From NCBI GenBank assembly GCA_002937585.1, contig PTKE01000015.1:1-35462 (forward strand): DNA of 35,462 nt, written 5' to 3'. The position numbers and the translations under genes were made by a program. Every line of letters starts with the position of its first letter. Within the stretch, counting starts at the first letter, position 1. Source of the DNA: Alphaproteobacteria bacterium MarineAlpha9_Bin6. GTDB lineage: Bacteria; Pseudomonadota; Alphaproteobacteria; UBA7887. Below are positions 2-28,502 of this stretch, in pieces. Under the pieces are notes generated by a model that saw nothing but the letters and a program-made list of their open reading frames with translations, was not told where the DNA came from and did not search any database.

Positions 2-1351
2 CTAACCGAGGTCGTCTTTGGTCCCATGGGCAACGCAGAAATGGAACGAGTCCTCGACAACACACACGAATATCGGGTCGTTACTGATCCCGAGGAGGCC
101 GGGCGCAAAGTCCACAAGAAGGTTGAGCTGTTCGCCAATATCTCGGAACCCATGTTTTGCGGCACCTGCCATGACGTGACACTGTTCAACGGCTTTCGAC
201 TCGAAGAAGCGTTCAGTGAATACCGGACATCCCCAGCAGCTGCACGCGGAGAAACCTGCCAAGATTGCCACATGGGCAAGGTCCAGGGCGTAGCATCGGG
301 CTATGATTACGGACCAGCTGCAGTCGTCGGTGGAGTCGAAACGATGCCCCGCAAACTTACGAACCACTTTTTTGCGGGTCCCGACTATTCGCTGATCCAT
401 CCCGGAATCTTCCCGCATAACTCTGTGGCGCAGGCGCTCGCGACGATGGAGGAATGGCTACAGTTTGATGTCGACGCCGGCTGGGGCACTGACGAATTCG
501 AGGACACCGTCACCGACGACGGGCAGTTTCCAGAAGCCTGGCAGTCCATCGATGACCGCTACGATGCCCGCGATATTATTGATTATCAGCTGGAACGACT
601 CGCATGGGCAACCGAACAGCGGCTCGAGGTGCTGCGTAACGGCTACATACTTGGCGATATTGTCACCAAACGTGCCGACGCAGGCGGCATTGAATTCGAC
701 GTCCAGGTGAGAAGTGGCACCGACGGTCACAACGTACCAACGGGCTTTACCGGCGAGCGGTTGGTCTGGCTTGAAGTAACGGTGACGGATGATGACGGCA
801 ACGTGGTGTTCGTATCCGGCGACCGCGACCCAAATGGTGACTTGCGCGATGGCCATTCGGCATACGTGCATGCTGGCGTGACTGCACTAGACCCTTACCT
901 GATGAGTCTCCAATCGATCTTTGTCACGCAGAATGTTCGGGGCGGTGAGATAGAGCACGTGATCCCAATTCCTTATCCGGTGACTGCCCTGCCAAGGGTG
1001 TTGCCATCGGCAGTATCGCTGGTATTCACCGGAGAGCCGGCGACAGAACGAGTCCACAAGAGGGGTATAGAGCCTCTTGGAGAGCGGTGGGGACACTATG
1101 TTGTTGAAGGCGACGCGCTGACCGGCCCGGGCCCGTATCGAGCGGTGATCAAGCTGATCCAGCAACCGGTTCCGATCAACCTCGTAGTGGCCATGCAGGA
1201 TGTTGGATTTGACTACGGACTCACGCCACGCCAAGTTGGCGACGCGTACATCGCTGGCGCACAGGTATTATGGGAGCGCGAGGTGATATTCAATATTGAC
1301 CCTGGTCAGGCCACAAATCAGACGGATAACGAAACAAAATTGGATGGTTAG
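2..1351 (+). CDS. Multiheme cytochrome c, C-terminal part (5' end outside the window)
   Basis: The frame is open from base 2, before the first ATG at 26, so the true start lies left of the window. Two heme c motifs are visible, CGTCH at 158-172 and CQDCH at 257-271. Nearby His residues (for example in LTNHFF and SLIHPG) could be axial ligands. The second half (from about base 690) has no heme motif. It looks like a beta-rich domain and contains GHNVPTGF, a signature I associate with the carboxy-terminal domain of cytochrome c554/c-prime-type multiheme proteins. Such proteins work in the periplasm or at the cell surface as electron carriers. More hemes are expected in the missing part. The next gene encodes an outer-membrane barrel, which suggests a cytochrome that hands electrons to or through the outer membrane; that role is inferred. 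Its own substrate, if any, cannot be read. Confidence 0.85.
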   Translation, partial: LTEVVFGPMGNAEMERVLDNTHEYRVVTDPEEAGRKVHKKVELFANISEPMFCGTCHDVTLFNGFRLEEAFSEYRTSPAAARGETCQDCHMGKVQGVASGYDYGPAAVVGGVETMPRKLTNHFFAGPDYSLIHPGIFPHNSVAQALATMEEWLQFDVDAGWGTDEFEDTVTDDGQFPEAWQSIDDRYDARDIIDYQLERLAWATEQRLEVLRNGYILGDIVTKRADAGGIEFDVQVRSGTDGHNVPTGFTGERLVWLEVTVTDDDGNVVFVSGDRDPNGDLRDGHSAYVHAGVTALDPYLMSLQSIFVTQNVRGGEIEHVIPIPYPVTALPRVLPSAVSLVFTGEPATERVHKRGIEPLGERWGHYVVEGDALTGPGPYRAVIKLIQQPVPINLVVAMQDVGFDYGLTPRQVGDAYIAGAQVLWEREVIFNIDPGQATNQTDNETKLDG

Positions 1352-1364
1352 ATTGGCTTCTGTG

Positions 1365-1397
1365 CTCGCTGTGCACGTGAATAACGCGGACAGCGAG
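1365..1397 (+). terminator. Inverted repeat between multiheme cytochrome and barrel genes
   Basis: CTCGCTGT at 1365-1372 and ACAGCGAG at 1390-1397 are perfect 8-base arms around a 17-base loop. Wobble pairs can extend the stem outward. No T-run follows, so this may be a processing site or weak attenuator rather than a true terminator. Confidence 0.3.
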
Positions 1398-1457
1398 TGC
1401 GAGTTGTAGTATTGAAAATTATGTCTTTCCGACGAAAGCCTTGGGGAGCAGTTGGAT

Positions 1458-2954
1458 ATGGGTAGATGCCGCTGGTACGGACGTAGCACCTCTTCATGGT
1501 CGCGGTTAAGCGTTGTCACGTTAGTGGCTGTGAGCCTTCTTGGCTCCACCGCATATGCGTCGGACGACGAGCAAGGTGGACACTGGTACGACTGGTTCTG
1601 GCCTCTCGGGGCACCGGCGCCCGTCGAAGCCTTGAAGCACGAATATGTTCCATTTAAAGGGCTCGGTGAAATTCCGAACCGACCGAAACTGATGATTGAG
1701 CTTGGCGACGCTTTCCTTGGTACGGGGCGGCTCAATCCCGGATTTCAGGTTCCCATTATCGGCGCCGTCTGGCAACCTCGACTTTGGTCCTACTTTATCA
1801 GTCGAACAGCACTGCAATCCTTCGATAATGGGGCGGCAGGCGCTGATCGCGAGACAGAAATTGCGAACCGAACAGACCTTTTCGTCAATTTGCAACTTAC
1901 CGGAACGGAAAAGATTCTCTTGGGCCTCAGGCCGTTCGACGCAAATTCGCCAAGACGCTTTACCAAGTACACCTTCAGCGGAGCCGACGAAGACTTCAAA
2001 AACGAACTCAACCTAGACGTTGAAGCTCTGTTTTTTGAGGGTGACGTAGGAAGTCTGTTTCCAATATTGGATGAAAAGGGCGTCACACCGATTGATTTTG
2101 GATTTTCGGTCGGTCGTCAGTCGATTACCTTCCAGGAAGGAATTCTTATCAACGATACCGTCGATATGATCGGGTTTAACCGCAACAATCTTACTTTTCC
2201 AGGCGCCTCAAACCTGAGATTTTCGGGTATGTGGGCATGGGACCGACTGGACCGGAATGACCGGGTTCGGGGATCCAATGCGAATATGTTGGCATTGTTT
2301 ACAGCGATAGATACACATGTCAGCACATTTAGTGTGGATACCATTTACGTCGCGGACAACGCGGCCGATGGCTCAGGAGATGCGTTTTATCTCGGCGTCT
2401 CAGCAATCCAGCGGATGAAGGTTCTGGGGCGACTAGGCGTGAGCACGGCGTACCGGGTCAACAGTTCTTTTGCGCTCGATGATGAAATTAGTGGGAACGT
2501 GATTGGCGATGGCACCCTGGTGACGGGTGAGTTCTCTTTCACACCGCATGGCTCACACGATATCGCCTATTTCAATCCGTTTTTGGCCCTTGGAAATTTT
2601 ACGCAAGCAGGACGCGAGGCAATTGTCGGAGGGCCGTTGGCAAACACCGGAATACTGTTCGCGTCGGCGAATCTCAGCACCTACGGCGCCGAAGTTAGCC
2701 CGTTCGTCGATGATGACATCGGGTTTGCCATCGGTTATCAGGCATTTTGGCAACATGGTCGTCGCAATCTAACTTTAGAGCTCGCAACGAAGAAGGATTA
2801 TTCGGGAAGTGGCAATGATTCTGTCGCGATCGGATATCAGCTGCAACAAGCAATTGCACAGTATGTTCAAATTCAGATCGAGTCCTTTTACACGTTCAAT
2901 GACACCATTTCGGACGGCGCAGGGGCACGCTTTGAAGTACTAGTGGTATATTGA
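1458..2954 (+). CDS. Outer-membrane beta-barrel (porin-like) protein
   Basis: This 498-residue protein has a Sec signal peptide: basic start, hydrophobic stretch VVTLVAVSLLGS and a likely cut after AYA near residue 35. The mature part has alternating polar and hydrophobic strands rich in Gly, Asn, Asp and aromatics. It ends in FEVLVVY, and a final aromatic residue is the usual BAM-recognition mark of outer-membrane barrels. I chose ATG 1458 because GGGGAG at 1443-1448 sits 9 bases upstream; a TTG at 1452 would be too close. I do not recognise a named family. It is shorter than MtrB-type barrels of about 700 residues. It lies between a multiheme cytochrome and a reductase gene, so it may hold a cytochrome or pass a substrate across the outer membrane. 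An ordinary porin is the alternative. Confidence 0.72.
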   Translation: MGRCRWYGRSTSSWSRLSVVTLVAVSLLGSTAYASDDEQGGHWYDWFWPLGAPAPVEALKHEYVPFKGLGEIPNRPKLMIELGDAFLGTGRLNPGFQVPIIGAVWQPRLWSYFISRTALQSFDNGAAGADRETEIANRTDLFVNLQLTGTEKILLGLRPFDANSPRRFTKYTFSGADEDFKNELNLDVEALFFEGDVGSLFPILDEKGVTPIDFGFSVGRQSITFQEGILINDTVDMIGFNRNNLTFPGASNLRFSGMWAWDRLDRNDRVRGSNANMLALFTAIDTHVSTFSVDTIYVADNAADGSGDAFYLGVSAIQRMKVLGRLGVSTAYRVNSSFALDDEISGNVIGDGTLVTGEFSFTPHGSHDIAYFNPFLALGNFTQAGREAIVGGPLANTGILFASANLSTYGAEVSPFVDDDIGFAIGYQAFWQHGRRNLTLELATKKDYSGSGNDSVAIGYQLQQAIAQYVQIQIESFYTFNDTISDGAGARFEVLVVY

Positions 2955-2967
2955 TTTAGGATAGCAC

Positions 2968-3020
2968 AAAAAAGATGAGATCGTGCCGCGCTAGCCGGCT
3001 ATTCGTAACCGATCTTCATC
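2968..3020 (-). terminator. Terminator-like hairpin read on the minus strand
   Basis: GATGAGATCG (2974-2983) pairs with CGATCTTCATC (3010-3020) apart from one bulged base. On the minus strand the stem is followed by T6 (A-run 2968-2973). The 26-base loop is long but contains a small GCCG/CGGC hairpin. No minus-strand gene lies close by, so the role is unclear; on the plus strand it sits in the leader of the reductase gene. Confidence 0.35.
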
Positions 3021-3132
3021 TAGCGTAGAGATTAAGATGGAGGGCATACTTGGTTTTCGGCGCATACGTCCTACAAGGGTCAAAAGTGTTTAGGTTTGTC
3101 AAGACCGGGGAAATTGAAAGAGTGAGACAGTA

Positions 3133-4422
3133 ATGGATGCCTTGTTTGGATCAACCGCGGTCCACTTAGTCGGCGCCATCATTATGGCCACGGCTTTGTT
3201 CCAGGTGGCGGTTCTTCTTTTCACCTCCTGGCGCGGTGCAATTTTTGCCCGAAGCCAACAAGAATTGTCTCTTCAGCTTTTAAAACGTCGCGTCGAAGCA
3301 GAAACACTACACGGTCAGATGGAACGGGACAAAGGCAGCTCGACTTGGTCCGGCCTGCGCAAGTTCCGCATCAACCGAAAGGTGCCGGAAGGCGGCGGCA
3401 TTTCCTCCTTCTATCTCGTACCCCACGATGGCAAAGAGATCCCACAGTTCGACCCGGGTCAATATTTAACCTTTAGTCTGCGCTTGCCGGATCGAGAGAA
3501 ACCGCTCGTGCGGTGCTATTCTTTATCGGACGGTAGCCTTCAAAGGGAACACTACCGTGTCAGCATCAAGCGGGCGGACCCGCCACGCAAGGCACCAGAG
3601 GCCCCGCCCGGGGTATCATCGAGTTTTTTCCATAACGCACTTAACGAGGGCGACATCGTTGATGTTAAAGCGCCGTCTGGAAATTTTTATCTCGACATCT
3701 CTAAACATACGCCGGTGGTCCTGATAGGTGGCGGTATCGGGCTGACCCCAATGCTTAGCATGCTCAATACTCTTTGTGAATCGGACTCCCAACGAGAAAC
3801 TTGGTTGTTTTACGGAGTCAGAAATGGCGAAGAGCACATCATGCGCGAGCACTTAGCACAGCTCGAGGCTGAACATGAGAACGTGCATTTGCAAGTGTGC
3901 TACAGCAATCCCCGAGATGGTGTCGACACCGATGGAACCGACTACCACCACGCTGAAAGGGTAAGTATCGAACTTTTTAAACGGGTCCTGCCATCCAATA
4001 ACTACGAATACTACATTTGTGGACCCGGGCCGATGATGGAGTCAATGACCAACGGGCTTCGGGAGTGGGGCGTTCCAGACAGCGATGTGCATTTCGAAGC
4101 ATTCGGCCCCGCCAGCGTCAAAAAAACCGCGCCGGCCAAAAAAAAGGCGGTGCCAGCCGGGGCAGCCGCTATCGAGGTCGTTTTTTCGAAGTCAGGAAAA
4201 ACTTTGAAGTGGGACGGGTCGGCTGAATCTATACTCGAACTTGCTGAAAACAACGGGATCGACATCGACTCAGGGTGCAGAGCGGGAAGCTGCGGCACCT
4301 GCATTACCGCGCTCAAGGGGGGAGAGGTTGACTACATCGAAGAACCAGGCGCATTACCTGAGGACAGCTCTTGTCTAGCTTGCATCGCGGTGCCAAAGAA
4401 CAATTTGACCCTAGACGCTTGA
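3133..4422 (+). CDS. Membrane-anchored FAD/NAD(P)-binding reductase with C-terminal 2Fe-2S ferredoxin
   Basis: This 429-residue protein has one transmembrane helix (about 9-32), then a ferredoxin-NADP reductase-type module. The FAD motif is R127-C-Y-S, the nucleotide motif GGGIGLTPM starts at about 199, and CGPGPMM follows. A Lys/Ala/Pro linker leads to a plant-type 2Fe-2S domain with C382-x4-C387-x2-C390 and a late Cys in SSCLAC. The order FNR module then ferredoxin matches reductases such as Hcr and phthalate/vanillate-type oxygenase reductases. It should pass electrons between NAD(P)H and a one-electron partner on the cytoplasmic side of the membrane. There is no oxygenase or hybrid-cluster gene beside it. 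Its neighbours are cytochromes and a barrel, so I infer that it feeds or drains this electron chain. The Shine-Dalgarno site is weak (GAGTGAG upstream), so the start is less certain than for its neighbours. Confidence 0.88.
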   Translation: MDALFGSTAVHLVGAIIMATALFQVAVLLFTSWRGAIFARSQQELSLQLLKRRVEAETLHGQMERDKGSSTWSGLRKFRINRKVPEGGGISSFYLVPHDGKEIPQFDPGQYLTFSLRLPDREKPLVRCYSLSDGSLQREHYRVSIKRADPPRKAPEAPPGVSSSFFHNALNEGDIVDVKAPSGNFYLDISKHTPVVLIGGGIGLTPMLSMLNTLCESDSQRETWLFYGVRNGEEHIMREHLAQLEAEHENVHLQVCYSNPRDGVDTDGTDYHHAERVSIELFKRVLPSNNYEYYICGPGPMMESMTNGLREWGVPDSDVHFEAFGPASVKKTAPAKKKAVPAGAAAIEVVFSKSGKTLKWDGSAESILELAENNGIDIDSGCRAGSCGTCITALKGGEVDYIEEPGALPEDSSCLACIAVPKNNLTLDA

Positions 4423-4485
4423 ACTGGGTGAACGAGGGAAGTTATCTTAGTGTGGCGCGGCATTTATATATGGAGGCTTGGTAAA

Positions 4486-5505
4486 ATGGAAAATACGGCA
4501 TTCGTGGACCGATTGTATCAAGCGCTCGGAACGACTGCTCTCGCGCTGGGCCTTGTTCTGGGCCTGCTCGCTGGCCCGTCACCGGCCGCAGCGCAGGAAA
4601 TGCGCCTTGACCCGGCTCTGGTAAAGGGTCCGGACGCTTGCGGAGAATGCCACAAGTCTTCGGTCGGCGTCTGGAAAGACACGCACCACGCCACAACCTT
4701 CAAAAGCTTGCCGCGTAGTGATAAGGCCAAAGAAATTGCAAAAGCTATGGGGATCCGGCGAATCAAGAGCGAGAGCGACTGCCTAGGTTGCCATTTTACC
4801 TCTGCGGCCGTGGATGGCGATGCTAAACCCATCGCGGGAATTACCTGCGAATCCTGCCACGGTGCCGGCAAAAACTGGATCGACGTACACAGCGATTTTG
4901 GGGGCAAGGGTGTGACCGCCGATACAGAGGACCCCGCCCACAAGACAGCAAGGTATGAACAATCCGAGGCAGCGGGTTTAATTCGACCCTCACGGATCTA
5001 CGCGGTAGCGGAGAACTGCTACACCTGCCATACCGTCCCTAATGAAAAACTCGTTAACGTAGGGGGACACCCGGCCGGTAGCAAATTCGAGCTGGTAGCA
5101 TGGAGTCACGGTGAAGTCCGACACAATGTCTGGTACTCGAAGGAAAACAACGCTTCTCCGCTCGAACGGCAACGGATGATGTACATCGTCGGCCAAGCAC
5201 TCGATTTAGAGTACGCCTTACGCGGTGTCGCAAAAGCAACGGAGAAGGCAAAATACGCTGTCGCTATGGCCAAACGTGCTAAAAGAGCCGAGAAACGACT
5301 TCAGAAAATTGCCGAAATGGTGGACGCACCAGAGATCCAGGCCATTCTCGCTATCGCTGCCGAAGCCAAGCTTAAATTAAACAACGAGGAACAGCTGACA
5401 ACGGCAGCCAATGGAGTATCGGTGGAGGCTAAGAAACTTTCCGACAGCTATGATGGAAGTCAGTTTGCCGGAATCGATGCCATATTGCCGAAACTGGATA
5501 AGTAA
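4486..5505 (+). CDS. Periplasmic tetraheme cytochrome c (c554-like)
   Basis: This 339-residue protein has a signal peptide with hydrophobic core ALALGLVLGLLAG and cut near AAAQE. Four heme c motifs are present: CGECH (Cys 52), CLGCH (99), CESCH (121) and CYTCH (178). The spacing and the paired His residues (THHATT, GHPAG, SHGEVRHN) fit the cytochrome c554 family of periplasmic tetraheme carriers. The last 110 residues carry no heme. They are rich in Ala, Lys and Glu and probably form long helices, perhaps for docking. ATG 4486 was chosen because GGAGG at 4472-4476 is 9 bases upstream; the GTG at 4450 has no such site. The next gene begins 46 bases downstream, so co-transcription is likely. 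The partner and direction of electron flow are not shown by the sequence. Confidence 0.88.
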   Translation: MENTAFVDRLYQALGTTALALGLVLGLLAGPSPAAAQEMRLDPALVKGPDACGECHKSSVGVWKDTHHATTFKSLPRSDKAKEIAKAMGIRRIKSESDCLGCHFTSAAVDGDAKPIAGITCESCHGAGKNWIDVHSDFGGKGVTADTEDPAHKTARYEQSEAAGLIRPSRIYAVAENCYTCHTVPNEKLVNVGGHPAGSKFELVAWSHGEVRHNVWYSKENNASPLERQRMMYIVGQALDLEYALRGVAKATEKAKYAVAMAKRAKRAEKRLQKIAEMVDAPEIQAILAIAAEAKLKLNNEEQLTTAANGVSVEAKKLSDSYDGSQFAGIDAILPKLDK

Positions 5506-5551
5506 GGGGAAAACCCATTTATAGGACCATACCGCGCGCGCGGAGGCGGTG

Positions 5552-7279
5552 ATGGCCGACACGACCACAACCATCCAGCGCCCACAACGCTGGGATAGCC
5601 CATTTGGGCCAGAGATGACGGACGCTGACGTTGAACGCGTCCTCGCGCTTGAGCCGTTTTGCAACATGGACCCGGAGCGATTTCCAGCGAGTCAGTCACT
5701 CGCGGGAGTCATTAAAAATGACACACGATTGATCCGTTACAACGACGGTGACATCCTCGTGCGGGCTGGAGATTATGGTAATTCAGCATTTTTGGTGGTA
5801 TCCGGCGAGGCCCACGTGGTTCTACCACAGACCCCCCTCCCTGAGGAGATGCTTGGTCGAGCGACTGAGAGAACAAAGGGCATAGTAGAAGCCGTTAGCC
5901 AACTCTGGAAAAACTCTAAATATCCAGAGGTACGGGATCACAACCGCTATGAAGACGGAGGTGCCACGGGAACACGCGGCAGCGATCAACATGCACGTAT
6001 TTTCTTGCAGGATGTCCCGACGGTTCTAAACGAGCATCGCACCAGAACACTGGGTGCGGGCGAGATGTTCGGGGAAATTGCTGCGCTTGGCCGAACACAG
6101 CGCACAGCCACCGTTTTTGCCGGGGGCGACTCAGAGCTTCTCGAAATCAGATGGCAGGGATTGAAAGAACTGCGCCGAAGGGTTGATGAGTTTCGCAAAC
6201 ACGTCGATAACCTATACCGGCAACGCAGCCTCACGGCACATTTGCAAGCAACACCGATGTTCGAACATCTCAGTGATGAGGTAATCGAAAAGATCGCCGA
6301 TGAGACGTTATTCGAGACTTATGGAAATTTTGACTGGCACACCTCCTACAAACGCTTATCGGAAGGACGTCCTGAAGACCGCCTTGCCCGCGAGCCAGTA
6401 ATAGTTTCAGAAGGCGATTATCCGGACGGATTGTTACTAGTTCGTTCCGGTTTTGGGCGGATCAGTAAGTCGGTCAATAACGGTCATCGCACCCTGCAGT
6501 ATATTGGAGCCGGTAAGGTTTTTGGTCTGCAGGAGATCATCCATAACTGGCGCCAAAAGGATTCAAGGCCACTTCAGACCAGTCTTCGGGCGTTGGGCTA
6601 CACAGACATTCTCCGAGTACCGACCAAGATTATCGAAGAATTAGTACTGCCAACCCTGACAGATGAGGCGCTAAACCGGTTGACCGGTTTAACACATCAG
6701 ACCAGCAGGCCGGCCGAAGCAGATACGAGTGGAGTTGTGGGTCTGGACGCAGGCATGTTGGAGTTTCTAGTCGAATACCGATACATCAATGGCAGTGCAA
6801 CCATGTTGATCGACCTCGACCGTTGCGTTAGATGCGATGAATGCGTCACCGCTTGTGCCAAGGGACATGACAACAATCCCCGTTTCAACCGTCATGGCCG
6901 ACGCTACGACCACTACATGGTGGCCAATGCTTGTATGCACTGCGCAGACCCCGTTTGTATGATTGGTTGTCCAACCGGTGCAATTCACCGGTCTTCATCA
7001 GCGGGTCAGGTGGTTATAAACGACGACACCTGTATTGGGTGCTCTACTTGCGCCAACTCGTGTCCTTACGACAACATTCGAATGGTTGATGTGCGGGATC
7101 AAAATGGTGCTTTCATTCTTGACCAGTCGATGAGTGCACCAATCGTAAAAGCTACCAAATGCGACCTTTGCGTTGACCAACCAGGTGGCCCCGCATGTCA
7201 AAGGGCCTGTCCTCATGATGCACTGAAACGCGTTGATATGAGTGATATGGGATCACTTGCAGACTGGCTGGACAGGTAG
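5552..7279 (+). CDS. Cyclic-nucleotide-binding (x2) / four-cluster 4Fe-4S ferredoxin fusion protein
   Basis: This 575-residue protein has no signal peptide or membrane segment, so it is cytoplasmic. It carries two cNMP-binding (CRP-type) folds, then a DmsB/NrfC-type ferredoxin. The first fold (about 45-205) keeps the phosphate-binding cassette with FGEIAAL and RTAT, including the Glu and Arg that hold the nucleotide phosphate. It also has an insertion of about 65 residues before that cassette. The second fold (about 215-370) has VFGLQE but no matching Arg, so it probably does not bind nucleotide. From about 425 to 555 there are four Cys clusters, starting at CVRCDEC, CMHCADPVC, CIGCSTC and CDLCVDQPGGPAC, enough for four 4Fe-4S centres. 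GGAGG at 5542-5546 supports ATG 5552. It overlaps the next gene (membrane cytochrome b) by one base, so the two proteins are probably partners. Control of electron flow by cAMP or a related nucleotide is inference. Confidence 0.9.
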   Translation: MADTTTTIQRPQRWDSPFGPEMTDADVERVLALEPFCNMDPERFPASQSLAGVIKNDTRLIRYNDGDILVRAGDYGNSAFLVVSGEAHVVLPQTPLPEEMLGRATERTKGIVEAVSQLWKNSKYPEVRDHNRYEDGGATGTRGSDQHARIFLQDVPTVLNEHRTRTLGAGEMFGEIAALGRTQRTATVFAGGDSELLEIRWQGLKELRRRVDEFRKHVDNLYRQRSLTAHLQATPMFEHLSDEVIEKIADETLFETYGNFDWHTSYKRLSEGRPEDRLAREPVIVSEGDYPDGLLLVRSGFGRISKSVNNGHRTLQYIGAGKVFGLQEIIHNWRQKDSRPLQTSLRALGYTDILRVPTKIIEELVLPTLTDEALNRLTGLTHQTSRPAEADTSGVVGLDAGMLEFLVEYRYINGSATMLIDLDRCVRCDECVTACAKGHDNNPRFNRHGRRYDHYMVANACMHCADPVCMIGCPTGAIHRSSSAGQVVINDDTCIGCSTCANSCPYDNIRMVDVRDQNGAFILDQSMSAPIVKATKCDLCVDQPGGPACQRACPHDALKRVDMSDMGSLADWLDR

Positions 7280-8097
7280 TGACGTTTGCCTCTCGCCGCC
7301 TGCGCAACATATCGATTGTAATTTTGGTCGCATTGGGTTTGTTGATAGGTCATCAAGTCTATAACGTGGCGCTCTATCAGGAACAGTTTTTATCTGGCTG
7401 GTTATTAATCGGTACAGTCCTATTCTTAACATTCTATAACGCCCGAAAGAAACTTAGCATGCTCCCTATCGGGACAGCTGCTAAATGGCTTCAGTTTCAT
7501 ATTTACCTCGGTTTTCTTTCTGTTCTTTTATTTTTTCTTCACATTAGCTGGCGTATTCCAAATGGTTGGCTAGAAGGTTTGTTAGCAGTTTTTTTTATCG
7601 GAGTGTCTCTAAGCGGGGTCACTGGACTATACCTTAGTCGCCGTCTTTCTAAGTTGCTAACTCAGCGCGGCGAAGAGGTAATATTTGAACGCATCCCCGG
7701 CTTCATCGCAGGATTACGAAGTGAGGCAGAGGAACTGGCATTACAATGCGCTTCCGGAACCAGCTCCTCGACTATCAGTGATTATTACGCTGCCGACTTG
7801 GCTCCTTTCTTTTCTGGACCAAAAAATCTGATGCGTCACTTTTTGGGTTCTCGTCGCGCCCTATTCGAAATGATCAAACAGACCACTAATATGGACCGCT
7901 ATTTAAACGACAAAGAGCGGGAATTCGCAGAAAAACTTCGTCAATTAATCGAGAAAAAGGATGAACTTGACTACCACTATGCTCTGCAAGCAATCCTTAA
8001 GGGTTGGCTGTTTATTCACATTCCACTCACGTACGGGATGATAATTTTAGCAGTCATACACCTGGTACTGGCATACGCGTTCAGCGGAGGCCTTTGA
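7279..8097 (+). CDS. b-type membrane cytochrome with two H-x13-H helices
   Basis: This 272-residue protein has about five transmembrane helices (10-28, 38-54, 73-90, 101-119, 245-268) and a hydrophilic loop from about 121 to 243. Helix 3 carries His74 and His88, and helix 5 carries His247 and His261. Each pair is 14 residues apart, as in diheme membrane cytochromes where two helices hold a heme on each side of the bilayer. It would link quinones or a cytoplasmic donor to periplasmic carriers. The GTG start overlaps the stop of the ferredoxin gene (TAGTG), a mark of translational coupling. Some codons are more AT-rich than in the neighbours, as is common in membrane proteins. I do not recognise a named family. 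The heme reading rests on His spacing and context only. Confidence 0.75.
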   Translation: MTFASRRLRNISIVILVALGLLIGHQVYNVALYQEQFLSGWLLIGTVLFLTFYNARKKLSMLPIGTAAKWLQFHIYLGFLSVLLFFLHISWRIPNGWLEGLLAVFFIGVSLSGVTGLYLSRRLSKLLTQRGEEVIFERIPGFIAGLRSEAEELALQCASGTSSSTISDYYAADLAPFFSGPKNLMRHFLGSRRALFEMIKQTTNMDRYLNDKEREFAEKLRQLIEKKDELDYHYALQAILKGWLFIHIPLTYGMIILAVIHLVLAYAFSGGL

Positions 8098-8099
8098 TC

Positions 8100-10526
8100 T
8101 TGGCTCAGGTCCAACAATTCTCCTTTCGCGAAAGTCCGTACCTCCGCCCTACCCAGAAGTGGGTCTGCGGTCACCTCACCGAAGGTAAACCGTGTCAAAT
8201 CGGTCCGGATAACAGGGGAAACTGCAGAGCCACCTCGGAGTGCCAGCCACGCCGGGATGGATCGCGATGGCAATGCACCCGCTCGCAACTTGCTGGCGGA
8301 CCCTGCAAGGAGGGCCCTCTCCCCGATGGGAACTGTTGCAGAAGCATCCCGAAATGCCGGCCGGTGCGAAGCTGGCGTGCAAAACGGGGTGCCGCAACGA
8401 AGTGGGTAGTGTCGGTTACAATCGGTCTCGTTCTATTGTGTATCGCCGGGGATGGTAGACAGCAGTTTATAAATCCTGGAAGTCTAACCTCACAACACGC
8501 TGAACTTTCGAATTGTGGCAGCTGCCACGGCGCGTTCGAATCAACACCTACGGAATGGCTTCACGCTGCCTTTGCAAAATCAAAATTGAAGGAAGACAGC
8601 GAACGGTGTCTGAACTGCCACAAACTGGGTGATGATGCTTTCCGACCTCACAGCATCCCAACTGACACGCTCGCTTCTCTAACGAAAACAGCAGCAATAA
8701 CCTACCCTTCATCTGGAGCATTGAGCGTACGTATCGCAAATACACTTCTGGACCCGCCCAACGAGGGCGGCCGCGTCTTGGTCTGTGGAACCTGTCACAG
8801 CGAACATCATGGCTCTGACTTCAATCTGACCGCTATGTCTGACGAAGGTTGCACCACTTGTCATAAAGCCCAATTCACAAGTTTTTCTGAAGGGCACCCA
8901 GCATACGTGGCATATCCCTATCAACGTCGTACTGGTATCCAGTTCGATCATCTTAGCCATTTTGGAAAACATTTTCAGACAGAACAAAATAAATCACTTG
9001 CATCCAAAGACTGTGGAAACTGCCACAAACCGGATTCTGTAGGCCAGAAGATGCTGGTGAAGTCCTTTGAGATCGTCTGTGGCGCGTGTCACGGCGGTCA
9101 GATTGAAGGCGAAGGACGAGCAGGTGCCAAAGGAATCGCTGTCTTCAGCGTTCCAGGGATAGATCCATACGCGCTTCAGGATCGCGCGGTCGCCATAGGA
9201 GAGTGGCCCGAGTTTGCGGAAGGGCCCGTCACTCCTTTTATGGATCTTCTACTCTCCAGCCAAAATAATTATCGAGCTGCCAAGACGATTCTTGAAGGTC
9301 TTGACCTGATGGATCTCTCGGACGCTACCGAGGAGCAAATCGGTGCCGTGGAAAGCCTAGCCTGGAACGTGAAGGGCTTGTTTTTTGATTTGCGTATAAA
9401 TGGATTGAACGAGCTAAAAACACGTTTAGAAACGGGCTTCGGACGGAAATTAGTAACAGATGAACTAGCCCAGCTAACCGGTCTCCTGCCAAGCGGAGTG
9501 GTTCAATCCGCTCAAACAAAATGGTTTCCGAACCTTTTTATTGAAGTCTCTCGGCAGCGCAAAGGTGAGAGAGTATTTTTGCCCTCCGATGATGAATCTC
9601 AAAATGAAGATTCAACTGATTTGAAAACACTTAACGGAACTGGTGAGATCGATCTTGGAGACGACGAAATCGATCTTGGAGACGATGAAATCGATCTTGG
9701 AGACGATGAAATCGATCTTGGAGACGATGAGATTGATCTTGGAGACGATGAAATCGATCTTGGGGACGACGAGATCGATCTTGGGGACGACGAGATTGAT
9801 CTAGGAGACGACGAAATCGATCTTGGGGACGACGAAATCGATCTTGGGGACGATGAAGAAATCGCCCTTGAAGACGACGATGAAATTGAGCAACGCAGCG
9901 ACGGTCCGACACTAGAAACACCTGTAATAGACGAGGATTGGGCAGCGGCAGGAGGCTGGTATCAAGACGACGATACCTTTGCTCTGAGGTACCGCCCTGT
10001 AGGACATGCCGACATTTTTATCCATAGCTGGTTAGACGTGACCTCACCCTTAACAGTATCGAGGACCTCCGAGGAAGGAAATAATAAAGTCGAACCTGGC
10101 TGGGCGACCGATATCTTTGAGGAGTTGGCGAACGCAAAGGGACCTGGGGTGTGCATTAAATGCCACTCGATCGATCAGAGCGATAATGCGAATGTAAGTA
10201 TCAATTGGCGTGGTGCGCGTCCTGACCCAAATCAACATTCGTTTACAAAATATTCCCACGAATCCCATTTCAGCCTCCTTGATGAGAAGGGTTGTGTAAC
10301 CTGTCACATAGTGAACAAGGAGAGCGATTTTTCAGTCGGTTTTGAGGATCGCGACCCAACCACCTTCGCCAGTAACTTCAAACCTTTGGAGCAGGCTGTA
10401 TGTGCCAACTGCCATCAAGCCAAAAAGGCAACAGACAGCTGCCTCACATGCCACAACTATCACGTCGGCGAATTTACTCAAGCCATGCCTACCACAAATG
10501 ACATGCTAGCTACCAACAACAACTAA
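8100..10526 (+). CDS. Membrane-anchored decaheme cytochrome c with Cys-rich cytoplasmic domain and acidic heptad repeats
   Basis: This 808-residue protein starts at TTG 8100, where GGAGG (8086-8090) is 9 bases upstream and overlaps the end of the cytochrome b gene. A start at 8004 would lie deep inside that gene. Residues 1-98 hold two similar Cys-rich units (WVCGH..GKPC..GP..GNC, then WQCTR..GGPC.EGPLPDGNC) that could bind metal. One transmembrane helix follows (about 100-118). The rest is periplasmic: six CxxCH motifs between about 140 and 330 (CGSCH, CLNCH, CGTCH, CTTCH, CGNCH, CGACH), a heme-free part, ten copies of EIDLGDD (about 516-585), then four more motifs from about 685 to 785 (CIKCH, CVTCH, CANCH, CLTCH). 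It probably takes electrons from the cytochrome b and passes them across the periplasm. The family has no name that I know. Confidence 0.88.
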   Translation: MAQVQQFSFRESPYLRPTQKWVCGHLTEGKPCQIGPDNRGNCRATSECQPRRDGSRWQCTRSQLAGGPCKEGPLPDGNCCRSIPKCRPVRSWRAKRGAATKWVVSVTIGLVLLCIAGDGRQQFINPGSLTSQHAELSNCGSCHGAFESTPTEWLHAAFAKSKLKEDSERCLNCHKLGDDAFRPHSIPTDTLASLTKTAAITYPSSGALSVRIANTLLDPPNEGGRVLVCGTCHSEHHGSDFNLTAMSDEGCTTCHKAQFTSFSEGHPAYVAYPYQRRTGIQFDHLSHFGKHFQTEQNKSLASKDCGNCHKPDSVGQKMLVKSFEIVCGACHGGQIEGEGRAGAKGIAVFSVPGIDPYALQDRAVAIGEWPEFAEGPVTPFMDLLLSSQNNYRAAKTILEGLDLMDLSDATEEQIGAVESLAWNVKGLFFDLRINGLNELKTRLETGFGRKLVTDELAQLTGLLPSGVVQSAQTKWFPNLFIEVSRQRKGERVFLPSDDESQNEDSTDLKTLNGTGEIDLGDDEIDLGDDEIDLGDDEIDLGDDEIDLGDDEIDLGDDEIDLGDDEIDLGDDEIDLGDDEIDLGDDEEIALEDDDEIEQRSDGPTLETPVIDEDWAAAGGWYQDDDTFALRYRPVGHADIFIHSWLDVTSPLTVSRTSEEGNNKVEPGWATDIFEELANAKGPGVCIKCHSIDQSDNANVSINWRGARPDPNQHSFTKYSHESHFSLLDEKGCVTCHIVNKESDFSVGFEDRDPTTFASNFKPLEQAVCANCHQAKKATDSCLTCHNYHVGEFTQAMPTTNDMLATNNN
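9645..9854 (+). repeat. Ten tandem 21-base repeats encoding EIDLGDD
   Basis: Ten in-frame units of 21 bases each encode the same heptapeptide E-I-D-L-G-D-D. The units differ only at silent positions (GAA/GAG, ATC/ATT, CTT/CTA, GGA/GGG, GAC/GAT). A decayed unit, EEIALEDDDEIE, follows. The block adds 40 acidic residues in 70 and separates the six-heme and four-heme parts of the decaheme protein. Confidence 0.97.
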
Positions 10527-21630: not shown

Positions 21631-23355
21631 TTAATGACCAGCGGCCAGCGCACCTTTAATTACTTGCCCAGCACATGCACCCGTAGTTTCGCCGTTTTCC
21701 AGTGTGACTTGGCCATTGACAACCGTATAGGCGATGCCCTCCGCTTTTTGGACTAGACGTCGAGCGCCTCCTGGCAGGTCTCGCTGTACCGTCGGGACCT
21801 TCGGCCTAATCTCTTTTTCGTCGAAGAGCACCAAGTCCGCCGCATAATCTTTACGTATTAAGCCGCGGTCAGATATTCCCCAGGCTAATGCATTGTCGAG
21901 TGTCAGCATGCGCACCGCAGTTTCCAGGGTAAACACTTGTTTCTGGCGCACCCAATAGTTCAACATATGAGTTTGTAGGGAGGATCCCATCTCCTGACAA
22001 ACGTGGGCGCCTGAATCCGAGAAGGTCGCCAATGTGCGAGGGTGCTCAAGTATACCTTGGACATGACTAGGATCCTCATTGACTAGTGGCTGAACGAAGA
22101 TTTGATCTTCGTTTTCCAAAACCAAATCCAGAATCACCTCCACTTGATGCTTGCCACAAGCTTTCGCCAGATCTTCTACAGTAGGGTCATCCCAATCGAC
22201 CCCTCGCATAACATATAAATTATCATAGTCGGGTTTACGCGGATCTGTGGTAGCAGCACCGCCTCCCTGAAAAACATTGTCACGAGGTTTCATAAGGGCT
22301 TCGTCGGCAATAAGTCGCTGTCGGACGTCCGGATTAGCAAAACGGGATTTCTGTTCTTCCATCGAGAGGCTCCGCACTTCTTCCCACGCCGGCAAGCCAT
22401 CGAACGGCAGGTAGGATTTAGCCGAAAAAATAGCGTTGATGGAACGAGTCGTTGCCTGACCCCACATCTGTCCACCAGATGCGACCACTTCGTCGATATA
22501 ATTGGTTTGGTATTGCCAAGAAATAGGCTCATCTCCCTGGCTGGTAGAAAGAATGCCGAACATGACAGGCCGTCCGCTATTTAGTGCCACCTTACGCAAA
22601 CGTTCCAAAAAATCCCGTTGGGCGGCACCCGATGACATATCTGGACCGATTTGGAAGACTCCCGAGTTAACCTCTGCCATGGCAGCAACTAGTCGATCGA
22701 TTTCTTCCCATTCAGCAATTCGGCTGGCCACCGGCGTCCCGTCTGGTGTGATGTGGGTTGTAGCGCGGGATGTGGAAAAGCCCACGGCACCAGCTAGCAG
22801 TGCCTCCTGAACAGCCCAAGCCATGCGGTCAAGGTCTTCTTCGTTTGCCGCTTCGCTCAATGCTCTTTCGCCCATGACATACATACGCAATGCCGAGTGC
22901 CCAATGTAAGCCCCATAGTTCAAGCCTTTGGGCAACCGCTCCACATTGGCCAGATATTCAGGAAAGGTCTCCCAAGTCCAGTCGATGCCCGAAACCATGG
23001 CTTCGGTGGGAATATCCTCCACCGCTTCCAGGCACCTAGCAAACCATTCGCGATCCTCAGGCATACAGGGCGCCAAAGCAAAACCACAATTGCCCATCAA
23101 CGCTGTTGTCACCCCGTGCCAGCAGGAGCAACTGCCCAACGGATCCCAGGAGACTTGAGCGTCCATGTGAGTGTGGCCATCGATAAATCCCGGCGCGACA
23201 ACCAACCCATCAGCATTAATTGTACGCTCAGCGGCTTTCCGAATATGTCCAATCTCAATGATGCGACCGTCCTTGACACCAATATCCGCCCCATACCGCG
23301 CCACGCCAGACCCGTCCACCACAGTGCCGTTCTTGACCAGTAGGTCCAACCCCAT
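21631..23355 (-). CDS. D-aminoacylase-like amidohydrolase, copy 1
   Basis: This 574-residue amidohydrolase of the N-acyl-D-amino-acid deacylase group starts with the small beta domain (DLLVKNGTVVDGSG). It has the first metal motif FIDGHTHMD, the conserved Cys of MGNCG, SDSGAH near the end and the closing domain KDYAADLVLFDEKEI. The family removes acyl or carbamoyl groups from D-amino acids or cyclic amides with zinc. The T-H-x-R segment that carries another metal ligand in true D-aminoacylases reads FQIGPD here, so the substrate or metal number may differ. GAGGGGAA precedes ATG 23355. A paralogue lies at 26820-28502. Cytoplasmic, with no signal peptide. Confidence 0.9.
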   Translation of the reverse strand: MGLDLLVKNGTVVDGSGVARYGADIGVKDGRIIEIGHIRKAAERTINADGLVVAPGFIDGHTHMDAQVSWDPLGSCSCWHGVTTALMGNCGFALAPCMPEDREWFARCLEAVEDIPTEAMVSGIDWTWETFPEYLANVERLPKGLNYGAYIGHSALRMYVMGERALSEAANEEDLDRMAWAVQEALLAGAVGFSTSRATTHITPDGTPVASRIAEWEEIDRLVAAMAEVNSGVFQIGPDMSSGAAQRDFLERLRKVALNSGRPVMFGILSTSQGDEPISWQYQTNYIDEVVASGGQMWGQATTRSINAIFSAKSYLPFDGLPAWEEVRSLSMEEQKSRFANPDVRQRLIADEALMKPRDNVFQGGGAATTDPRKPDYDNLYVMRGVDWDDPTVEDLAKACGKHQVEVILDLVLENEDQIFVQPLVNEDPSHVQGILEHPRTLATFSDSGAHVCQEMGSSLQTHMLNYWVRQKQVFTLETAVRMLTLDNALAWGISDRGLIRKDYAADLVLFDEKEIRPKVPTVQRDLPGGARRLVQKAEGIAYTVVNGQVTLENGETTGACAGQVIKGALAAGH

Positions 23356-26819: not shown

Positions 26820-28502
26820 TTAGTGACGCAGTACGCATCCGGGCCGAACCCCGGTATGTTCGTCATCGCGGAGAATTACCTTACCGTTGCAAATAGTTGC
26901 TCGGTAGCCGTTAGCTCTTTGGATAAAGCGCTTCGCACCGCCTGGGAAATCATGCACGATTTCAGGCATACGCTCCCCCAACCGGTCAATGTCGATGACA
27001 TTAATGTCAGCACGCAACCCACGAGTTATGGTGCCCCGATCAGTAACACCAAGCACCCGAGCAGGTGCTGAAGTAATACGCCGCACAGTTTCTTCAAGCG
27101 AGTATAACTCTGCATCACGACCCCAATGGGACAACACAAACGTCGACCAACCAGCATCCATAATCTGGCTGACGTGAGCGCCAGCGTCCCCAAGCCCGGG
27201 CATAACAAACTCTTGGGAAAGCACCCGGGTCAGGGCTTCAAGGCTTTGGTTGAAAAACCGGACAGTGAACAACGCACGACCATCGCTCTCATCCGATAGC
27301 CTTAGAAAGGTCTCTACCGGATCTTCACCCCTCGCGTCTGCCATTGCCTGCAAGCTTGACTCTCTACCCCCGGTATATTGAGGTCGTTCTGAATCCCCTA
27401 GCCAAATAATATGTTCCATGCCGGTCAAACGCCATATGTCGCCGTAGTCAGAGAGAGTTTCCGCTTTGGCTGCCTCGATCAACTCACGTCTAGCAGACTC
27501 GTCCCGAATCGCGGCCAAGCGCTCCTCCAGACCCATTTCCCCAAGACGTTTCCAAGGCTTGGAGCGCCAAATCAAGTTACATTGCAAACCGGTAACAAAA
27601 CCCGAACCCCTCGGAATCGCAATCGCATTGATATCTAATCCTTCGGCCCGCATTGCCGATACCGCCTCACAGATACTATCGCCATATTCATTCGTTGGAC
27701 CTGCCGTCATGCTAAACAAAACTCGACCACCCGACGCCCGCGCTTCTTTAGCTAACAAAGCAATTTCTCCGTCAAAATCACTGCGAAGGTTAGTGACGTT
27801 TTGCATCAAACCACCCTCGGAACCAACCGCTTCGGCAATCTCGACAAGCTCCTGGTGGTCCGCATGCGTGCCCGGAACATGACGGCCGTCAGGAAGATGA
27901 TGAAACAAGAGGCGTGACGTCGAAAATCCCACTGCACCATCCTTCACTGCAGTCCGCGCAATCGCCGCCATTTCACTCCGTTCTTCAGGTGTCGCCTGCT
28001 CCTCAACGGCCCGTTCGCCCATTACATAAAAGCGAAGAGCACAGTGGCCCACCAAGCCAGCAACATTTATCGCCGGAGTCATAGTCTCAACGCTGTTAAG
28101 ATATTCCCCGTAATGCTCCCAATCCCAGGGAAGGCCAGATAGAATTGCGTCTTTCGGGATGTCCTCCACCGCTTCCATCATACCGGCCAGCAATTCACGG
28201 TCTCCCGCGCGGCAAGGCGCGAAGGTGACACCACAATTCCCCATTAGTGCTGTGGTCACGCCATGCCATGAAACAGGCGTCAACATCGGATCCCAGCCGA
28301 TCTGTGCATCAAAATGTGTGTGTAAATCGATAAAACCTGGAGTAACGATTGTATCGGTCGCGTCAATCTCTTCACGACCAGTGCTCGACACAGCGCCTAC
28401 TTCGGTGATGCTATCTCCATCGATTGCGATATCGCCTATTACCTGGGCGTCGCCAGAACCATCAATGATGGTTCCCCCACGGATCACCAAATCATGCACC
28501 AT
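26820..28502 (-). CDS. D-aminoacylase-like amidohydrolase, copy 2
   Basis: This 560-residue paralogue of the 21631-23355 protein shares the same order of motifs: DLVIRGGTIIDGSGD, FIDLHTHFD, HGVTTALMGNCG, AVEDIP, YVMGERA, AVGFSTSR, GDAGAH and a closing beta domain. As in copy 1, the T-H-x-R segment of true D-aminoacylases is absent (MQNVTN instead). The family hydrolyses N-acyl-D-amino acids, dihydropyrimidines or related amides with zinc; the substrate here is unknown. GGGAGGAG is 6 bases before ATG 28502. Similar length, strand and sequence to copy 1 suggest duplication followed by divergence. A DUF599 gene is divergent upstream. Confidence 0.9.
   Translation of the reverse strand: MVHDLVIRGGTIIDGSGDAQVIGDIAIDGDSITEVGAVSSTGREEIDATDTIVTPGFIDLHTHFDAQIGWDPMLTPVSWHGVTTALMGNCGVTFAPCRAGDRELLAGMMEAVEDIPKDAILSGLPWDWEHYGEYLNSVETMTPAINVAGLVGHCALRFYVMGERAVEEQATPEERSEMAAIARTAVKDGAVGFSTSRLLFHHLPDGRHVPGTHADHQELVEIAEAVGSEGGLMQNVTNLRSDFDGEIALLAKEARASGGRVLFSMTAGPTNEYGDSICEAVSAMRAEGLDINAIAIPRGSGFVTGLQCNLIWRSKPWKRLGEMGLEERLAAIRDESARRELIEAAKAETLSDYGDIWRLTGMEHIIWLGDSERPQYTGGRESSLQAMADARGEDPVETFLRLSDESDGRALFTVRFFNQSLEALTRVLSQEFVMPGLGDAGAHVSQIMDAGWSTFVLSHWGRDAELYSLEETVRRITSAPARVLGVTDRGTITRGLRADINVIDIDRLGERMPEIVHDFPGGAKRFIQRANGYRATICNGKVILRDDEHTGVRPGCVLRH

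Follow-up and report, generated by a model that had tools for sequence, protein, structure and literature searches.

The contig PTKE01000015.1 of Alphaproteobacteria bacterium MarineAlpha9_Bin6 carries seven genes, here named g1 to g7, which apparently form a cluster that is conserved in multiple phyla, fed by NADH and linked to cyclic nucleotides, and that ends at the outer membrane in a pair consisting of a pentaheme cytochrome and a channel. The window analysed is this entire contig (G000:C24; 35,462 nucleotides) of a host genome of 2.38 Mb that is 98.6% complete.

An open reading frame check confirmed the seven consecutive plus-strand genes between positions 2 and 10526 that had been proposed in an original prediction made from the DNA letters alone. 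Intergenic gaps do not exceed 178 bp, and g5, g6 and g7 touch or overlap. The electron-carrying motifs named in the original prediction were also recovered: at least 16 CxxCH motifs had been claimed, and 16 were counted (two in the visible part of g1, four in g4 and ten in g7), whose origin by chance was ruled out by residue shuffles, which averaged at most 0.04 motifs per protein; Fer4-type cysteines for four 4Fe-4S clusters were found in g5; the histidines of two H-x13-H pairs in g6 (H74/H88 and H247/H261) were invariant in 25 of 25 aligned relatives; and the Pfam domains of g3 included FAD, NAD and 2Fe-2S domains.

Conservation and linkage of the gene set

Of 77 related alphaproteobacterial genomes searched, eight contained a full-length relative of g5, neighboured by other genes of the seven-gene set. 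When one genome per species was scanned with a g5 alignment, a permissive cut-off yielded 513 relatives, of which the best 80 were kept. Linkage was counted at the 35 loci that extended at least 7 kb on either side of g5, using profiles built from our own alignments. Genes g3, g5, g6 and g7 were present at all 35 loci and g4 at 34, and g1 and g2 were present at 18, never one without the other. The genes, whose order the original prediction had proposed to look for in other genomes, were found to be linked and not scattered.

At 32 loci, among them the window and a contig that was counted twice (L026 and L061), the set is complete; these loci belong to Alpha- and Gammaproteobacteria, Planctomycetota, Verrucomicrobiota, SAR324 and Nitrospinota. 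A system of this type is present in at least five phyla, and among its carriers are Hwanghaeella grinnelliae Gri0909 and two organisms with complete genomes, Planctomycetales ZRK34 and Ca. Uabimicrobium amorphum. Taxonomy was taken from record titles, some of which are unreliable, and only broad groups were used. Three loci (L058, L070 and L095) are titled Akkermansia muciniphila or Klebsiella pneumoniae but have Verrucomicrobiota-like gene content, and are probably mislabelled metagenome bins.

At loci without a local g1-g2 pair, g1 was usually located elsewhere in the genome, as in Ca. Uabimicrobium amorphum and Planctomycetales ZRK34, and a whole-genome search for g1 in these cases indicated that the distant g1 adjoins g2 wherever the flank is readable. 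The same search found no g1 in one relative that is 91% complete. In Ca. Uabimicrobium and in a relative, the stand-alone pair adjoins two genes (L133:12344-15766 and L139:10649-13744) that resemble, by eye, cytochrome c assembly proteins of the ResB/CcsA type. Among the 77 alphaproteobacterial genomes, a strong g1 match and g5 of the main type or of the variant described below occurred together in ten, g5 only in four, g1 only in one (a genome that is 63% complete) and neither in 62 (Fisher p = 9.5e-9, uncorrected for kinship). To judge from these sequence comparisons, g1 to g7 are a real conserved multi-compartment electron-transfer unit.

Components of the cluster

Although g1 is truncated by the contig edge, its visible part includes hemes 4 and 5, at residues 158-172 and 257-271, and five CxxCH motifs are present in its relatives, one of which belongs to the same genus. 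The domain scan gave a weak multiheme c signal. Against PF03264 (NapC/NirT; cut-off 24.1) g1 relatives reached a borderline 18-26 bits over a short stretch with hemes, and g4 and g7 had no match. The family profile matched the pentaheme cytochrome c552 of T. tepidum (PDB 5ze8) over the heme part with an E-value of 7.2e-15, and on this profile evidence g1 is assigned to the T. tepidum c552/ExtKL pentaheme type. Five histidines outside the CxxCH motifs (113, 144, 265, 354 and 365) are conserved in g1 relatives and could cap all five hemes, which would leave no obvious open catalytic heme. A leftward search for the missing heme gene, as the original prediction had suggested, was partly successful: neither a missing 5' piece nor a second g1 copy was found in the host genome, but the g1 start is visible on a contig from the same genus, where an acidic repeat comes after a signal-peptide-like stretch. 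On that contig a TonB-like pair and a minus-strand gene precede g1, and genes resembling, by eye, a TonB-dependent receptor and TonB precede g1 in the genus and family of the host (L135:7414-10730 and L024:4996-8109).

The g2 protein has a signal-peptide-like N terminus and an aromatic last residue, and models as a beta-barrel. The domain scan, PHROGs and a PDB sequence search gave no match for g2, nor was a Pfam porin matched by any of 26 g2 relatives, so that a known nutrient porin family, a possibility raised with the original prediction, was rejected by sequence. The AlphaFold2 model has approximately 18 strands (19 were assigned, one of them short), and its Foldseek neighbours were chitoporin, Campylobacter MOMP, Occ/OprD channels and AlgE, with TM-scores near 0.5-0.6, and MtrB was not among the best 50. 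The ideal backbone diameter of 18 strands is about 33 Å, versus about 47 Å for 26 strands. Because a barrel of this modelled size would hardly hold a multiheme cytochrome inside, it is unlikely that g2 encloses one, and an MtrCAB-like sheath is unsupported. Relatives of g2 keep a GGPLANTGILF stretch between strands, which may reflect a constriction or a binding site. Docking of g1 beneath the g2 pore is conceivable, as is the entry of a small acceptor through g2.

On the donor side, g3 matched the reductase part of flavohemoprotein (1cqx, E-value 2.5e-71) and NqrF (E-value 7e-36), and its NAD domain is predicted to lie in the cytoplasm because basic residues follow the N-terminal membrane helix. 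In g5, the cyclic-nucleotide (cNMP) binding domain PF00027 scored 88.7 bits against a cut-off of 27.5. The first of its cNMP domains has the canonical cassette FGEIAALGRxxRTA or a near form of it, the second is degenerate, and an FGE...R..RTA cassette is invariant in seven g5 relatives; judged by these motifs, the domains look functional.

In a distant variant (L034:8422-19522; L030, L031, L033 and L035), found in part in genomes without any g1, g5 carries a fused pyridine-nucleotide-disulfide oxidoreductase, and an FHA domain replaces the Cys-rich domain of g7. One variant genome (G068) has relatives of g4, g1 and g2 alongside, and g3 was not found across the 33 kb read at this locus. It is mainly because the fused flavoenzyme replaces g3 in the variant that g3 is placed directly before g5, and the fusion points to NAD(P)H as the probable electron donor.

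The domain scan of g6 gave a weak DUF4405 signal, and the H-x13-H spacing is as expected for two b hemes across the membrane. The start of g7 is most likely one of two TTG codons (8094 or 8100) located where g6 ends, and not 8004 as given previously. The protein has one membrane helix and ten invariant CxxCH motifs, and comparison with 26 relatives showed eight nearly invariant cysteines (C55, C64, C74 and C80; C91, C101, C111 and C118) in its Cys-rich domain. This unnamed domain is kept across phyla, and a PHROGs search with it found nothing. The domain scan of g7 gave doubled CxxCH types, and a match to an MtrC-type Pfam domain was a match to heme stretches, none of which passes alone.

Acidic DD/LL repeats were found at the N terminus of g1 and between hemes 6 and 7 of g7, in both proteins in 12 cases, in neither in 21 and in g7 only in one (p = 2e-8; kinship was not corrected for, and one contig enters the count twice). 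Loci with repeats in both genes include L024, L026, L029, L047, L051, L052, L054, L076, L080, L084 and L102, and g7 of the window has them as well (9645-9857). This shared presence or absence within a genome suggests that the g1 and g7 cytochromes meet.

Table 1. Positions of the g1 to g7 genes and of two regions of g7 in the window
Feature	Position	Strand	Description
g1	2..1351	+	Periplasmic pentaheme cytochrome c, C-terminal two thirds with long C-terminal domain; 5' end lost at contig edge
g2	1452..2954	+	Outer-membrane beta-barrel, ~18 strands; AlphaFold2 pLDDT 77, Foldseek OprD/AlgE-like
g3	3133..4422	+	Membrane-anchored NADH-type reductase, order TM-FAD-NAD-2Fe-2S (Pfam)
g4	4450..5505	+	Periplasmic tetraheme cytochrome, c554 type; PF13435 (E-value 4e-16), four invariant CxxCH
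g5	5549..7279	+	Cytoplasmic; cNMP-binding domains and four 4Fe-4S clusters
g6	7279..8097	+	Membrane diheme cytochrome b, two H-x13-H pairs
g7	8094..10526	+	Decaheme cytochrome c; cytoplasmic Cys-rich N-terminal domain, one membrane helix
Cys-rich domain of g7	8166..8357	+	Two four-cysteine repeats preceding the membrane helix
EIDLGDD x10 in g7	9645..9854	+	Between hemes 6 and 7

A heme-copper oxidase gene and two cytochrome c assembly genes are present in the host genome, so that the host is able to make c-type cytochromes and probably respires oxygen. Elsewhere in the window, two genes resembling, by eye, D-aminoacylase-like amidohydrolases are located on the minus strand at 21631-23355 and 26820-28502, a few kilobases apart.

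Proposed electron path and alternatives

We lean towards reading g1 to g7 as an NADH-fed electron export system under cyclic-nucleotide control. NADH would reduce the anchored flavin/2Fe-2S protein g3, which would hand its electrons to g5 with its four 4Fe-4S clusters, the cNMP domains of g5 tuning the transfer. The diheme cytochrome b g6 would then take the electrons through the inner membrane to g7, the anchored decaheme, which would pass them to the periplasmic tetraheme g4 and the pentaheme g1, and g1, acting on the periplasmic side of g2, the outer-membrane channel, would reduce an acceptor that enters through the channel or touches it. The order and direction of electron flow, the gating by cNMP, the docking of g1 on g2 and the acceptor are inferred. 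The original prediction had proposed a new kind of wire between the cytoplasm or quinone pool and an outside or periplasmic acceptor or donor; the conserved unit stood, the sheathing barrel did not, and export of electrons out of the cell is presumed.

Control by cyclic nucleotides was considered further through the genes beside the cluster. Class III adenylate/guanylate cyclase genes were found at 18 of the 94 stretches examined (L052, L059, L061, L068, L069, L083, L085, L092, L094, L096, L098, L099, L100, L103, L107, L109, L110 and L115; some contigs were counted twice), versus about 0.9 expected from the cyclase density in 15 sampled genomes, 12 of which had been picked for a cyclase at the locus. 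These genomes have 1 to 10 cyclases, with the exception of the SAR324 genome, which has 88, and in one genome the sole cyclase is located 171 bp from g3. The cyclases beside the cluster vary in position and architecture (CHASE2, GAF, 7TMR-DISM, AAA and others), and in Verrucomicrobiota they are usually accompanied by a FecR-type gene. This adjacency is good but not decisive evidence for cNMP control. As a more specific and tentative proposal, a second messenger made by a cyclase, whose gene adjoins the cluster in several lineages, may directly open or close the flow from NADH to the outer membrane via the cNMP-ferredoxin in a widespread export system, the acidic repeats matching the inner and outer cytochromes to each other.

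Several observations weigh against NADH-fed export under cyclic-nucleotide control. The raw probability of the cyclase adjacency is inflated by shared ancestry, and the adjacency corresponds to about four lineages, with p of about 0.013 by lineage count. There is no cyclase beside the cluster in the window, and the single cyclase gene of the host, CHASE2-like by eye, is on another contig. The helical model of g6 (pLDDT 92) had no PDB fold match, and g6 could oxidise quinol instead. Furthermore, the whole-genome search found no g1 in four Limisphaerales-type genomes that have the core (in one of them, a weak partial match only), and the outer-membrane part is therefore not obligatory.

What happens at the outer membrane is open to two readings, neither of which we consider probable in itself. 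One possibility, to which we give limited credence, is a true extracellular conduit, in which g1 docks in or on g2 and passes electrons to minerals, humics, electrodes or partner cells, as the strict pairing of g1 with g2 and the analogous barrel and pentaheme cytochrome of Geobacter extHIJKL (PMC6148476) would suggest. However, approximately 18 strands are too few to enclose a multiheme cytochrome, the set has no gene for an outer-surface cytochrome, and no lipoprotein signal was noted in g1. It is similarly conceivable, if doubtful, that g2 admits a soluble oxidant, such as an oxyanion, which is reduced by g1 or g4, with the electrons staying in the cell. The resemblance of g2 to substrate channels, its conserved GGPLANTGILF stretch and the c554-like nature of g4 are consistent with such a role, and a similar proposal has been made for ExtI with selenite and tellurite (PMC5877670), but there is no known catalytic subunit, and the possible capping of all g1 hemes by histidines argues against catalysis there.

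Alternatively, g6 and g7 may oxidise quinol in the manner of NapC/CymA or Cbc-type complexes, with g3 and g5 being regulatory or separate. A diheme cytochrome b with a multiheme c is a common plan of quinol dehydrogenases, but the constant presence of g3 and g5 with g6 and g7 at 35 of 35 loci and the fusion of a flavoenzyme to g5 in the variant make this improbable. Still less probable is an inward flow, from an outside or periplasmic donor through g1, g4, g7 and g6 to g5 and g3, making NADH or reduced ferredoxin: all of the carriers are reversible in principle and one genome in the set is labelled an Fe(II)-oxidiser (L073), but transfer from common donors to NAD is uphill, the set has no energy-coupling subunit, and the flavoenzyme fusion is more simply read otherwise. 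That the genes are chance neighbours of unrelated function is refuted, practically beyond doubt, by linkage kept across phyla and by the genome-level co-occurrence of g1 and g5.

Comparison with known systems

The cluster shares a barrel and multiheme cytochromes with the MtrCAB and Pcc conduits, but has no MtrA/B/C-type protein, and its barrel has about 18 rather than about 26 strands. The curated models agree with the original prediction on this absence: with the MtrA/DmsE model TIGR03508, g7 scored at most 38.9 bits and g1 relatives 24.8-30.2 bits, versus a cut-off of 192.2, and no NCBIfam match to an OmcA/MtrC outer-surface decaheme cytochrome was found among the window proteins. Membership in the MtrCAB type was therefore ruled out by family scores and barrel size.

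The FAD and NAD domains of g3 are shared with the reductase domain of flavohemoprotein and with NqrF, in which the 2Fe-2S domain precedes the FAD domain, whereas g3 has an N-terminal anchor and a C-terminal 2Fe-2S domain. Cbc-type and Hmc/Qrc-type complexes combine a multiheme cytochrome c with a membrane cytochrome b or anchor and an Fe-S subunit, features that the cluster shares, but g7 gave only weak matches below the cut-offs for these complexes, and we know of no cNMP domains or NADH flavoenzyme in them.

Most of the trans-envelope electron systems that have been studied well are fed by quinol and, to our knowledge, controlled by transcription. If the reading proposed here is true, a second messenger would directly control electron export, given the apparent NADH feed, the cNMP-ferredoxin in the path and the cyclase beside it. 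Open-licence papers, considered without supplements, gave no description of a set combining multiheme cytochromes with cNMP binding, or of such systems in these phyla, and the combination of NADH-fed export genes with cyclic-nucleotide control seems not to have been described. The system is testable, as it occurs in the named strain Hwanghaeella grinnelliae Gri0909 and in complete genomes.

A structure comparison unites c552 and ExtKL in one pentaheme type, in which the C-terminal domain was called Ig-like (PMC11976967). With this type (T. tepidum c552, ExtKL and the PHCs of cable bacteria) g1 shares five hemes and a C-terminal domain, but its C-terminal part is longer and it is strictly paired with a barrel gene; full-length g1 relatives fail the cut-off of the ExtKL model NF040886 (35.6, 30.3 and 27.0 bits versus 250). 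Of the arrangements described so far, extHIJKL(MNOPQS) of Geobacter sulfurreducens comes nearest. It encodes the barrel ExtI, the periplasmic pentaheme ExtKL, a membrane cytochrome b and additional multiheme cytochromes (PMC6148476, PMC5877670), and the reduction of Fe(III) and Mn(IV) depends in part on extHIJKL (PMC6148476). A barrel adjoining a pentaheme cytochrome, additional cytochromes and a membrane cytochrome b are common to both arrangements, whereas the NADH reductase, the cNMP-ferredoxin and the diheme cytochrome b/decaheme module of g1 to g7 contrast with the rhodanese lipoprotein and the Rieske/cytochrome b pair of Ext.

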